Assembly (NCBI RefSeq): GCF_001663155.1
Contig: NZ_CP015963.1
Coordinates: 1,760,001 to 1,824,000 of the forward strand
Length of the DNA stretch: 64,000 bases
Reading direction: 5' to 3'
Origin: Altererythrobacter ishigakiensis
GTDB taxonomy: Bacteria > Pseudomonadota > Alphaproteobacteria > Sphingomonadales > Sphingomonadaceae
Below, piece after piece: positions 36,099 to 39,224 of this stretch. Made by a program: the position numbers and the translations under genes. Under the pieces are notes generated by a model. It was not told the DNA's origin. It was given only the letters and a program-made list of their open reading frames with translations, and ran no database searches. Position 1 is the stretch's first letter. Each line of letters begins with the position of its first letter.

Positions 36099-37237
36099 TG
36101 AACCGGTTCGGAAAGACCAGCAACAATTCGCTCATTCCCGCTCCGATTGCTCGCCAACCGTGGGAAATGTTGATCCCTTTGCTGACGCTGGTCCTGTTTG
36201 GGGCAGCGGTACTTTATTCCGCCGCGGGTGGTGCGATACAACCATTCGCCGCATCGCATATTGTCAGGTTCACAGTTTTCATGGTCATGGCAGCAATAAT
36301 AGCATCGCTTCCGCAGCCACTTGTGAAATTCCTGACTTACCCGGCATACGTTACGGTGCTTTTGATGCTTCTTGCAGTCGAGGTCGTTGGAGCGATTGGT
36401 GGAGGTAGTCAGCGGTGGCTTGATCTGGGGTTCATGCGATTGCAACCGTCTGAAATCATGAAGCCGGTTGTGGTTCTGGCGCTTGCGCGATTCTATTCTT
36501 CGCTGCCACCGGGAATGGTCGGAAACTGGCAGGCTCTGGTTCTACCCGGCGCTTTGATCGCCATGCCGATGTCGTTGGTTTTATTGCAGCCAGATCTGGG
36601 AACGTCGCTCGCAATTGCATTCGGCGGTGCGATAGTGATGCTGTTGGCAGGCCTCCCGGTCCGGTGGTTTGCTATCGGTGGTGCGATCGCCGCTGTTTTA
36701 GCACCCCTCGCCTTCTTCTTCGGCCTTCAAGAATATCAGCAGCGGCGCGTGACGACATTTATGGACCCGGAAAGTGATCCGCTTGGGGCGGGTTACCACA
36801 TTACCCAGTCGAAAATCGCAATCGGGTCAGGCGGCTTGACAGGCAAAGGCTTCAATCAAGGCTCGCAAAGTCATCTGGACTACCTTCCTGAGCCTCACAC
36901 AGACTTTGTTTTTGCAACCATGGCTGAGGAATGGGGACTAATCGGCGGCTTGTTCGTCATCGTGATGTTCAGCTTGATATTGCGCTGGGGTTGGCGAGTT
37001 GCGCGGGCGTCTAACGATCGGTTCGCCATGCTGCTGGCTGGTGGAGCAACGGCGACAGTATTCTTCTACATCGCGATCAATCTGATGATGGTCATGGGAT
37101 TGGCGCCTGTTGTAGGCATTCCGCTGCCATGGATGAGCCATGGCGGTTCTTCCATGCTGACCAACATGATCTGCGTAGGATTACTTATGATGGTCAACCG
37201 CTGGAACAGAGAGGCACCCCGGCGCGGTCTGCATTGA
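36095..37237 (+). CDS. rodA: peptidoglycan glycosyltransferase RodA
   Basis: 380 residues, about ten membrane segments, SEDS family. Signatures: GGSQRWLDLGFMRLQPSEIMK, LLQPDLGTSLAIAFG, and the C-terminal LPEPHTDFVFATMAEEWG followed by IPLPWMSHGGSSMLTNM. It polymerises lipid II glycan strands together with PBP2, encoded just upstream with a 4-bp overlap. It is the last gene of the rod operon. Confidence 0.96.
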   Translation: MMNRFGKTSNNSLIPAPIARQPWEMLIPLLTLVLFGAAVLYSAAGGAIQPFAASHIVRFTVFMVMAAIIASLPQPLVKFLTYPAYVTVLLMLLAVEVVGAIGGGSQRWLDLGFMRLQPSEIMKPVVVLALARFYSSLPPGMVGNWQALVLPGALIAMPMSLVLLQPDLGTSLAIAFGGAIVMLLAGLPVRWFAIGGAIAAVLAPLAFFFGLQEYQQRRVTTFMDPESDPLGAGYHITQSKIAIGSGGLTGKGFNQGSQSHLDYLPEPHTDFVFATMAEEWGLIGGLFVIVMFSLILRWGWRVARASNDRFAMLLAGGATATVFFYIAINLMMVMGLAPVVGIPLPWMSHGGSSMLTNMICVGLLMMVNRWNREAPRRGLH

Positions 37238-37306
37238 CCAACTCAATCGAGTAACAAAGGCTTTCAATTCCAAGCAGCAGCGCTATATGAGCGCCTCTTC
37301 CGATTC

Positions 37307-37331
37307 GGAACCGCGCAGAACGCGCGTCGTT
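37307..37331 (+). promoter_or_regulatory. EcfG-type general stress promoter before tRNA-Lys
   Basis: GGAAC (37307-37311), 16 bp, CGTT (37328-37331): an exact match to the sigma-EcfG consensus GGAAC-N16/17-CGTT. The tRNA begins 13 bp after CGTT, leaving room for a leader of only a few bases. No good sigma-70 promoter is evident in this gap. Confidence 0.45.
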
Positions 37332-37344
37332 ATCTGAACAAAGT

Positions 37345-37420
<76 letters not shown>

Positions 37421-37464
37421 TTTTCTCCGCCCAAGCCGTTAGATCATCCTCTCTTTAGGCCAAG

Positions 37465-37482
37465 AACACATTTCTATGTGTT
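37465..37482. promoter_or_regulatory. distal operator-like dyad upstream of ribB
   Basis: AACACAT-TTCT-ATGTGTT is a perfect 7-4-7 inverted repeat, sharing the core CACAT-N4-ATGTG with a second dyad 52 bp downstream. It lies 64 bp before the ribB ATG. Confidence 0.55.
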
Positions 37483-37516
37483 TAGATGCTTTAGATAAGC
37501 ACTTTTCTAGCTTGAA

Positions 37517-37534
37517 ATCACATCACAATGTGAT
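37517..37534. promoter_or_regulatory. proximal operator-like dyad upstream of ribB
   Basis: ATCACAT-CACA-ATGTGAT is a perfect 7-4-7 inverted repeat ending 11 bp before the ribB ATG. Weak -35/-10 candidates (TTTAGA-N17-TGAAAT, ending near 37518) would put it over the -10 box or transcript start, a repressor position. Confidence 0.55.
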
Positions 37535-37545
37535 ATCGCTGGCTT

Positions 37546-38793
37546 ATGAGCACATCTACAATCACACGCGTACGCGATCTCATATCATCGGGCGAGATGT
37601 CCCGCGCTGGTCTGGCCAGAGCTGCCGGTCTGCATGCCAACACGTTGCGGGATTGCGCGGAAGCCAGTTGGAATCCAACTGCAGAGACCCTCTCGAAACT
37701 GGAGAACTTCCTCACAGGTAATGATGACCGCCCTGCACTCGTCGGAATCGAAGAGATCATCGACGAAGCGCGGAACGGCCGTATGTACATTTTGGTAGAT
37801 GACGAAGATCGCGAGAACGAAGGCGATCTCATCATCCCTGCTCAAATGGCGACACCGAACGCCATCAACTTCATGGCCACACACGGTCGCGGATTGATTT
37901 GCCTTGCTCTTAGCCGCAAGCGCGTTGAAGCGCTTGGCCTTGAGCAAATGACAGCGAATAATTCTGAAAGCATGCAGACCGCTTTCACGATCTCAATCGA
38001 AGCGAAGGAAGGGGTGACAACCGGTATTTCAGCAGCTGATCGCGCTCGAACTGTATCAGTGGCGATTGATGCGACCAAGGGACCCAATGATATCGTAAAA
38101 CCAGGGCATGTCTTCCCGTTGACAGCCAGGGATGGCGGGGTGCTAGTGCGCGCTGGCCATACCGAAGCAGCGGTCGACATCTCTCGGCTCGCTGGCTTGA
38201 ACCCGTCAGGTGTGATCTGCGAGATCATGAATGAAGATGGCAGTATGGCACGGTTGGACGACTTGATCGGTTTTGCCCGAAAGCATGACCTCAAGATCGG
38301 CACAATCCGCGACCTGATCGAATATCGCCGCCGCAATGACCATCTGGTTGAACGTGTCAGCGAACGGAGCTTTGAGTCTGATTACGGCGGTCAGTGGCGT
38401 CTGATTACCTACCGGAACACCGTTGATGGCAGCGAGGCATTGGTCTTGCAAAAGGGACACGTCGTGCCCGGTGAGCCCACCCTCGCCCGTGTACATCCGG
38501 TTTCGGTGCTCGACGATGTTCTTGGCCAGCCGGGAGAGCGCAAGCGTGTTCTGCAACGCTCTATGGAAGCGGTCGGCAAACACGGCTCCGGCGTGATCGT
38601 TGTGCTCCGCGATCGTCCTGCCACAAACAATTATAGCGAGGAAGACGAACTTAGGAATGTGGGCATCGGCTCACAAATCCTTGCGGACTTGAAGATCCAT
38701 GACATGATCCTTTTGAGCAATTCCCAACCTAATGTTGTCGCGATCGAAGGTTATGGCCTGAATATCGTAGATCACATGCCCATCCCGGAGTGA
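37546..38793 (+). CDS. ribB: HTH-fused 3,4-dihydroxy-2-butanone-4-phosphate synthase (RibB/RibBX type)
   Basis: 415 residues in three parts. Residues 1-58 form a Cro/C1-type helix-turn-helix (SRAGLARAAGLHANTLRDC, then NPTAETLSKLENFL). Residues ~65-265 are DHBP synthase, which turns ribulose 5-phosphate into the four-carbon precursor of riboflavin: acidic site DDEDRENEGD (85-94), HGRGLIC, and PGHVFPLTARDGGV with AGHTEAAVD. Residues ~280-410 resemble GTP cyclohydrolase II, but the three zinc cysteines are replaced (VHPVSVLDDVLGQPGERK), so that activity is probably lost, as in RibBX proteins. Two matching dyads lie upstream and no FMN riboswitch was seen, which suggests self-regulation. It is followed by ribH after 8 bp. 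Confidence 0.93.
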   Translation: MSTSTITRVRDLISSGEMSRAGLARAAGLHANTLRDCAEASWNPTAETLSKLENFLTGNDDRPALVGIEEIIDEARNGRMYILVDDEDRENEGDLIIPAQMATPNAINFMATHGRGLICLALSRKRVEALGLEQMTANNSESMQTAFTISIEAKEGVTTGISAADRARTVSVAIDATKGPNDIVKPGHVFPLTARDGGVLVRAGHTEAAVDISRLAGLNPSGVICEIMNEDGSMARLDDLIGFARKHDLKIGTIRDLIEYRRRNDHLVERVSERSFESDYGGQWRLITYRNTVDGSEALVLQKGHVVPGEPTLARVHPVSVLDDVLGQPGERKRVLQRSMEAVGKHGSGVIVVLRDRPATNNYSEEDELRNVGIGSQILADLKIHDMILLSNSQPNVVAIEGYGLNIVDHMPIPE

Positions 38794-38801
38794 CCCGATA
38801 A

Positions 38802-39224
38802 ATGGCCAAAATCCTGATAGTCGAAGCCCGTTTCTACGGACACTTGAATGATATGCTCATTCGCGGCGCAAGAGCCGCCATCGAAGCTGCAGGTCACGAA
38901 GTGGAAGTTCTAACCGTCCCAGGAGCGCTCGAGATACCGGGTGCTATCGCCCTCGCGCTTGAGAGCGATCAATATGATGGGTTCGTTGCGATTGGCGTGG
39001 TAATCCGCGGTGAAACCTATCACTTCGAGATTGTGGCCGGAGAGAGTGCACGCGCGATTATGGCGCTGACTATGGACGGCATTGCAATCGGCAATGGCAT
39101 TCTGACCGTTGAGAACGAGGAGCAGGCACTTGTCCGTGCGGACCCCGCTCAAAAGAATAAGGGTGGCGAGGCTGCCGTAGCAGCGCTCGCCCTACTCAAG
39201 ATTCAGGAACGTTTCGCCGGTTGA
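38802..39224 (+). CDS. ribH: 6,7-dimethyl-8-ribityllumazine synthase
   Basis: 140 residues. It condenses the DHBP made by RibB with the ribityl-pyrimidine to lumazine, the next-to-last step to riboflavin. Signatures: [17 protein letters not shown], the phosphate-binding [15 protein letters not shown], and [14 protein letters not shown] with the catalytic histidine. It is cotranscribed with ribB. Its TGA directly abuts the complementary stop of eno (TGATCA). Confidence 0.95.

Follow-up and report, generated by a model that had tools for sequence, protein, structure and literature searches.

The 64,000-nucleotide stretch of DNA analysed here, which we call the window (Altererythrobacter ishigakiensis, assembly GCF_001663155.1, NZ_CP015963.1, positions 1,760,001-1,824,000 of the forward strand; all coordinates are those of the window unless a genome handle is given), contains a gene for a 3,4-dihydroxy-2-butanone 4-phosphate (DHBP) synthase, RibB, with a helix-turn-helix (HTH) domain of the Cro/C1 type at its N terminus and a palindromic sequence, or dyad, just before its start codon. 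We propose that this protein, HTH-RibBX, is an autoregulatory enzyme of vitamin B2 synthesis that would repress ribBX and the adjoining ribH by way of that dyad, with a second dimer strengthening the binding; judged from the sequences, the probability of this is about 0.78. The dyad accompanies the HTH in every locus that could be scored, and in whole genomes its exact form is nearly unique to the start of the HTH-ribB gene.

Two dyads lie upstream of the gene

The gene (37546-38793 including the stop codon, plus strand), recognized from its open reading frame (ORF) and domain matches, encodes 415 amino acids. The ATG at 37546 is the first possible start, since an in-frame TGA (37531-37533) falls within the nearer dyad. 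An earlier note on this DNA had described two perfect 7-4-7 dyads with centers 52 bp, or about five helical turns, apart, and we find both of them. The near dyad, ATCACAT-CACA-ATGTGAT (37517-37534), is the putative main operator, with its conserved core TCACAT-N4-ATGTGA at 37518-37533. The distal dyad, AACACAT-TTCT-ATGTGTT (37465-37482), would be a second operator.

The sequence CACATN4ATGTG occurs twice in the window against 0.08 expected, and two or more copies were obtained in 1 of 100 shuffles. Within the 2,673,978-bp genome it is found in three places, two of them the window dyads, compared with one place for a reversed-pattern control. The near dyad is the single genomic occurrence of TCACATN4ATGTGA without mismatch. 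Allowing up to two mismatches gives 55 places, against 13 for the reversed control. All four one-mismatch sites are inside ORFs of at least 110 codons, and from the 50 two-mismatch places we inspected the distal dyad and those at genome positions 65562, 68954, 770432 and 1116990. The site at 68954 (G000:C1:68954; L184 1501-1516) is inside one ORF, ~0.6 kb before another that is flavin reductase-like, and is probably there by chance.

The dyad accompanies the HTH domain

We assembled 171 RibB loci, 142 with the HTH and 29 without, from a 246-genome sample of the order and from later searches, and scored the best TCACAT-N(3-5)-ATGTGA with at most two mismatches within 250 bp upstream. The dyad is present in 142 of 142 HTH loci and in 0 of these first 29 HTH-less loci, while the threshold is reached in about 1.5% of composition-preserving shuffles of the upstream regions of HTH loci. 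It is common to loci whose proteins are as little as about 60% identical, where the surrounding DNA looks diverged by eye. A second set, drawn by organism name, comprised 80 of 585 matches (Altererythrobacter, Erythrobacter, Porphyrobacter, Qipengyuania, Croceicoccus, Croceibacterium, Novosphingobium and uncultured relatives), seven of which repeat earlier loci; the dyad was found in all 79 that could be scored. One record of this set is titled Actinobacteria, and is probably a misassigned contig. The pairing of HTH and dyad on which the earlier note's proposal depended is thus borne out: no HTH ortholog lacking the dyad was found in the 142 and 79 loci, and none of 49 HTH-less ribB genes (see below) has one.

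We also scanned 80 whole genomes, 60 with HTH-RibB, 18 with an HTH-less RibB and two without ribB, for the exact site. There are 39 such sites, and comparison by eye with the positions of RibB places 36 of them at the start of HTH-ribB. None is found in the 20 genomes lacking HTH-RibB, and the reversed control pattern is absent from all 80. With 36 of 39 exact sites at HTH-ribB, the protein therefore looks like a local rather than a global autoregulator, although weaker sites may occur elsewhere. The other three are probably chance occurrences: one in G025 lies ~1.5 kb downstream of ribB (L237 1501-1516), past ribH and an ORF that we read as aldo/keto reductase-like, one lies before a lipoprotein-like ORF in G100, and one is in G156:C22.

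Elsewhere in the pathway, none of 24 ribA loci contains a site with two or fewer mismatches when the whole locus is scanned, so that the site is seen at the protein's own gene only. The ribE gene was considered as a target and set aside. A site with N4 spacing and no more than one mismatch is present in 7 of 24 ribE loci, but in all seven HTH-ribB directly follows ribE, and the site is therefore that of ribB. An eighth match, a two-mismatch site in the ribE locus of the window's own genome (L199:312), lies 1.1 kb beyond the ribE ORF, and a further one-mismatch match with N3 spacing in that locus is within another ORF.

HTH-less ribB genes and other possible owners of the site

Absence of the HTH is confounded with gene order. 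Of the first 29 HTH-less genes 26 follow ribE directly, with an overlap in 22 cases for the start as chosen here, and these 26 probably have no promoter of their own. ribE is directly upstream in 40 of the 142 HTH loci too, where a gap of 33-324 bp holds the dyad; the exceptions are L140 and L144, in which the dyad begins 11 bp inside ribE. We therefore draw on 20 further HTH-less ribB genes, 11 having no ribE match in the stretch retrieved and five coming from genomes that have HTH-RibB, and all HTH-less loci were scanned up to residue 69, over 370 bp before the enzyme domain. No dyad with two or fewer mismatches was found within these 370 bp in any of the 49, including the 14 that have no ribE immediately before them. 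Extending the scan to 400 bp gives a single match (L390, with a 3-base gap), which we read as ribE coding sequence. An HTH is detectable in none of the 49 loci (best E 0.58). The extra monofunctional ribB genes L374-L378 (in G143, G194, G220, G130 and G080), with neither HTH nor dyad, stand in genomes that also encode HTH-RibB. On a quick RibB tree with some long branches the HTH label requires 10 changes, at least four of them on well-supported branches. The dyad follows the HTH in four of four independent contrasts, too few for formal significance.

The dyads could instead be bound by a regulator encoded elsewhere that co-varies with a private ribB promoter, leaving the HTH structural or vestigial. 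Such a factor would be expected to co-vary in this way, because loss of the HTH mostly coincides with a position directly behind ribE. However, the 14 HTH-less genes without ribE upstream are dyad-free as well, six of them (L176 and L374-L378) coming from genomes with both HTH-RibB and its dyad. The HTH moreover retains 13 invariant residues over 41 proteins, and with exact sites so concentrated at HTH-ribB itself the factor would have to act at HTH-RibB promoters alone. We consider a separate regulator of this kind unlikely.

The known regulator that comes closest is NrdR, whose box consensus shares the outline CAC-N8-GTG with the rib dyads; were it, or another regulator, the owner of the sites, the HTH of RibB would do something else. 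NrdR boxes are reported to be mostly 15-16 bp apart, about three turns from center to center (PMC12051234), and most second half-sites at ribB, 31-32 bp away, are similarly placed. The window's own genome has no clear NrdR box before nrdA (L357). On the other side, none of 27 nrdA upstream regions of the family has a rib-type dyad (N4 form, two or fewer mismatches); a CAC-N8-GTG site is present in 14 of the 27, and is mostly of another type, with CACTAT or CACAAT as its left half. NrdR is described as universal (PMC12051234), yet the exact dyads are absent from the 18 HTH-less and two ribB-less genomes, where nrdR itself was not searched for. We therefore regard NrdR, sought as the other regulator that the earlier note had allowed for, as very unlikely. 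Tandems of NrdR-like boxes 30-32 bp apart do occur at five of the 27 nrdA loci (L347, L349, L350, L368 and L369). A CRP-like site was set aside, the half-sites being oriented the other way relative to the consensus.

The near dyad is placed within a putative leaderless promoter

The bases flanking the dyad are also conserved. TTG stands 7 or 6 bp before it in 81 of the 142 HTH loci, with at most 10 loci at any other offset, and TA directly follows the core in 95, compared with 19 at the mirror position; the A before the dyad is also among the most conserved flanking bases. From the conserved TTG we assign a putative -35-like element, TTGAAA (37512-37517, plus strand), next to the near dyad core, and from the conserved TA a putative -10-like element, TATCGC (37534-37539, plus strand). 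The start codon follows 11-14 nt past the dyad in 108 of 142 loci. Shine-Dalgarno pairing was judged by duplex energies because GTGA inside the dyad misleads motif counts. HTH-ribB starts show no clear Shine-Dalgarno sequence and pair weakly with the 16S tail, at a median of -1.7 kcal/mol, with 16% at or below -4, whereas 92 ribH starts give a median of -6.1 kcal/mol, with 84% at or below -4. The arrangement suggests a leaderless promoter in which the operator would form the spacer and the transcript would begin at or near the ATG. Two points weigh against this: the -10-like hexamer resembles TATAAT poorly, and a consensus scan did not report this promoter. The earlier note had put the near dyad where a repressor would block the start. 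That position stands, with the amendment that the site is flanked by the -35-like and -10-like elements of what seems to be a leaderless promoter.

The same position bears on two further explanations. Because the start codon follows closely, the dyad might act in RNA, as a 5'-terminal hairpin exerting translational or processing control, and T-G variants of the inner pair, which would be wobble pairs in RNA, are found in 27 of 142 loci against 12 for C-A. However, the mismatched C-A is tolerated in those 12, and there is no compensatory change, inner C-G being found in 2 of 142 compared with about 3 expected from independent halves. In addition, the flanking TTG and TA suggest a dyad upstream of the transcription start, a second copy of the dyad lies further upstream, and 38 ribB loci have no Rfam match besides tRNAs. 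We consider an RNA hairpin extremely improbable. Alternatively the protein might bind the dyads and activate, a role for which conserved sites ahead of a start could also be suited; the Wolbachia factors that act on ribA are reported to activate a reporter (PMC3518464). The best conserved site here lies between the -35-like and -10-like elements, however, which is the usual place for a repressor. Activators normally bind at or upstream of the -35 element, and repression by HTH-RibBX is the reading we prefer, activation being rather unlikely.

A second site is common in the relatives. In 81 of 142 loci a TGTGA half-site precedes the corresponding half of the near dyad by 30-33 bp, and in six, the window among them, by 52 bp; any other distance from 18 to 99 bp is seen at most twice. 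A full second dyad with two or fewer mismatches lies within 70 bp in 32 of 142 loci, against 0.4% of shuffles, and its distance is 29-33 bp in 26 of these, 52 bp in three and 19-25.5 bp in three. The main distances correspond to about three and five helical turns, and two dimers would therefore share one face of the DNA. The earlier note's five-turn spacing on the same face is therefore upheld for the window. Looping over 52 bp, which it had also suggested, fails as a general arrangement, three turns (30-33 bp) being the rule, and dimers side by side on one face are more likely.

The HTH domain

The domain covers residues 1-62 (37546-37731, plus strand) on the basis of profile matches and conservation, and has the helical HTH fold of the Cro/C1 (XRE) class. 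The window protein alone gives a weak match to Pfam HTH_3 of only 15 bits, below the cut-off of 23. Among 41 family members, 25 match HTH_3 with E values of 0.1 or lower (best 2e-5), and 25 likewise match HTH_26. A DHBP synthase with an N-terminal Cro/C1-type HTH, as first described for this gene, is thus supported by the PF00926 match together with HTH matches at the level of the family. The 13 invariant residues of the HTH in 41 relatives, which range down to 60% identity to the window protein, are A24, G28, L29, H30, N32, L34, R35, W42, N43, P44, T45, T48 and L52; the HTH is therefore not a vestige. We predict that it binds the palindrome as a dimer, on the basis of its co-occurrence with a conserved palindrome. 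The full-length predicted structure was of too low quality for the domain arrangement to be read.

Related HTH sequences are found in other settings. AcrIIA15 (8jfr and 8jfu) is 18-19% identical, with an unrelated second domain and unrelated biology. Small stand-alone HTH proteins of 94 and 78 codons, encoded on the minus strand at L171 449-730 and L227 1456-1689, carry the same WNP(T/R)AET signature and are a possible source of the fused domain. In family f5 of the same order (L172 3-1484, minus strand, G034) a similar HTH is fused to CoaBC, of coenzyme A biosynthesis, in a protein of about 490 amino acids. This HTH is 37% identical to that of RibB (hhalign probability 98), and a database search with it found one further such fusion only (P0122).

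The enzyme domains and neighboring genes

The DHBP synthase domain occupies residues 69-260 (37750-38325, plus strand; Pfam PF00926, 282 bits). Its RENEGDL and GHTEA motifs are intact in all 142 HTH relatives, so that the fusion is probably still enzymatic, as far as kept motifs can indicate. Going beyond the earlier note, we find that the C-terminal third is a GTP cyclohydrolase II (GCHII)-like domain (38350-38785, plus strand; PF00925 match) without the three zinc cysteines, and is the probable non-catalytic X domain of a RibBX protein. In an alignment with the M. tuberculosis enzyme, the window protein has other residues in place of the zinc cysteines, and the zinc segment of the HTH proteins has no cysteine in 137 of 142 and one in five. 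A separate ribA above the NCBIfam cut-off is present in the window's own genome (G000:C1:265566) and in 24 of 26 genomes searched; the two exceptions, G157 and G243, are also without RibB. Both belong to the window's genus and are rated 100% complete; neither gave a match for ribA, ribE or ribB, and they may be riboflavin auxotrophs.

The next gene, ribH (38802-39224, plus strand; Pfam PF00885), encodes lumazine synthase and is probably co-transcribed with ribBX. It is downstream in 121 of the 142 HTH loci, within about 150 bp in 117 of these. On the left the control region is bordered by a tRNA-Lys(ctt) gene (37345-37420, plus strand), upstream of the dyads.

Riboswitches and taxonomic range

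The FMN (flavin mononucleotide) riboswitch is a usual bacterial control of rib genes. The earlier note had seen none in the upstream gap, and this is confirmed by a scan of 36900-38000, in which the tRNA was the only match over a family's cut-off. Apart from tRNAs, no known RNA exceeds the Rfam cut-offs in the 38 ribB loci (29 HTH-less and nine with the HTH). Searches of 42 genomes of the family, 36 with HTH-RibB, found no FMN riboswitch (RF00050), under stricter filters by which weak matches can be lost. The same stricter search detected it in two of seven sister-family genomes. In one of these (G004:C1:1016622-1017534) it lies directly upstream of a monofunctional ribB, which is the ordinary control.

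In the samples searched, the HTH-RibB fusion is confined to the Sphingomonadaceae, the family being taken from organism names. A class-wide search with the HTH profile matched 11 of 337 genomes, and strongly (E below 1e-32) in four only, all of the window's family and all with HTH-RibB; the other matches are weaker HTHs (E 1.8e-10 to 9.5e-4). In a class-wide protein search of 385 genomes, those among the matches listed that come from outside the family and reach the HTH either contain a stop or start no earlier than residue 26.

Discussion

RibB is a homodimer. Its dimer would pair two N-terminal Cro/C1-type HTHs, which would read TCACAT-N4-ATGTGA. Binding between the -35-like and -10-like elements would then exclude RNA polymerase and so repress ribBX-ribH. 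Binding would be strengthened by a second dimer on the same face of the DNA, at a distance of three turns in most of the relatives with such a site and of five turns here. The binding might be released or tightened by a ligand, either one of the enzyme (ribulose 5-phosphate or DHBP) or a flavin or nucleotide bound by the degenerate GCHII domain; this is a guess, as is our suggestion of the degenerate domain as a reasonable metabolite sensor.

Published RibBX proteins are described as a working RibB joined to a GCHII-like domain that has neither the zinc nor the catalytic residues (PMC10012899). Those of Shewanella oneidensis and Aeromonas salmonicida, and the A. baumannii structure 6mnz, which is the best PDB sequence match of the window protein, resemble it in joining RibB to a GCHII-like domain without zinc cysteines. 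The A. salmonicida and A. baumannii proteins start with the synthase domain, whereas here an HTH stands in front and matching putative operators lie upstream. No published HTH-RibB fusion, or operator of one, was found by title or abstract in a search that left most subscription journals outside.

RbkR, an archaeal HTH-riboflavin kinase (Haloferax HVO_0326 and others), is called 'bifunctional as gene regulator and enzyme', and its relative MJ0056 is classed as an enzyme only, without the N-terminal HTH (PMC8305020). As in RbkR, one protein would both regulate vitamin B2 synthesis and catalyze a step of it: an enzyme and a DNA-binding-type domain share one polypeptide, and a conserved site precedes its own gene. 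MJ0056 parallels the HTH-less RibB. RbkR is a riboflavin kinase of archaea, however, whereas here a DHBP synthase (RibBX) of bacteria carries a Cro/C1-type HTH. In Wolbachia, wBmxR1 and wBmxR2 are transcription factors acting on ribA and reported activators of a reporter (PMC3518464). They are likewise regulators of a riboflavin gene in an alphaproteobacterium, but they are separate activator proteins, while here the regulator is fused to the enzyme. RNA control of rib genes elsewhere, by the FMN riboswitch, is a further difference.

BzdR, too, combines an XRE-type HTH with a domain derived from an enzyme. This domain is shikimate kinase-like; BzdR has lost catalysis and senses benzoyl-CoA, and an enzyme-active fusion (Q1) was built as a model of the ancestral stage (PMC3602430). 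BzdR is catalytically dead, whereas this RibB retains the synthase motifs and is encoded behind a putative operator of its own. The full picture, in which a catalytic RibBX would be its own repressor, with its operator in the spacer of a leaderless promoter and a dead GCHII domain as sensor, replacing the FMN riboswitch across the Sphingomonadaceae and representing a natural stage from enzyme to repressor such as was rebuilt for BzdR, we put forward tentatively, as possible at somewhat less than even odds.

If HTH-RibBX acts as proposed, it would provide a compact pair of operator and enzyme with a sharply defined 16-bp site, and a natural, probably still enzymatic fusion in which to study the evolution of repressors from enzymes. 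It would also hint at what the degenerate GCHII domain does in RibBX proteins. Above all, it would explain the control of vitamin B2 synthesis in a large and well-studied family in which no FMN riboswitch was found.
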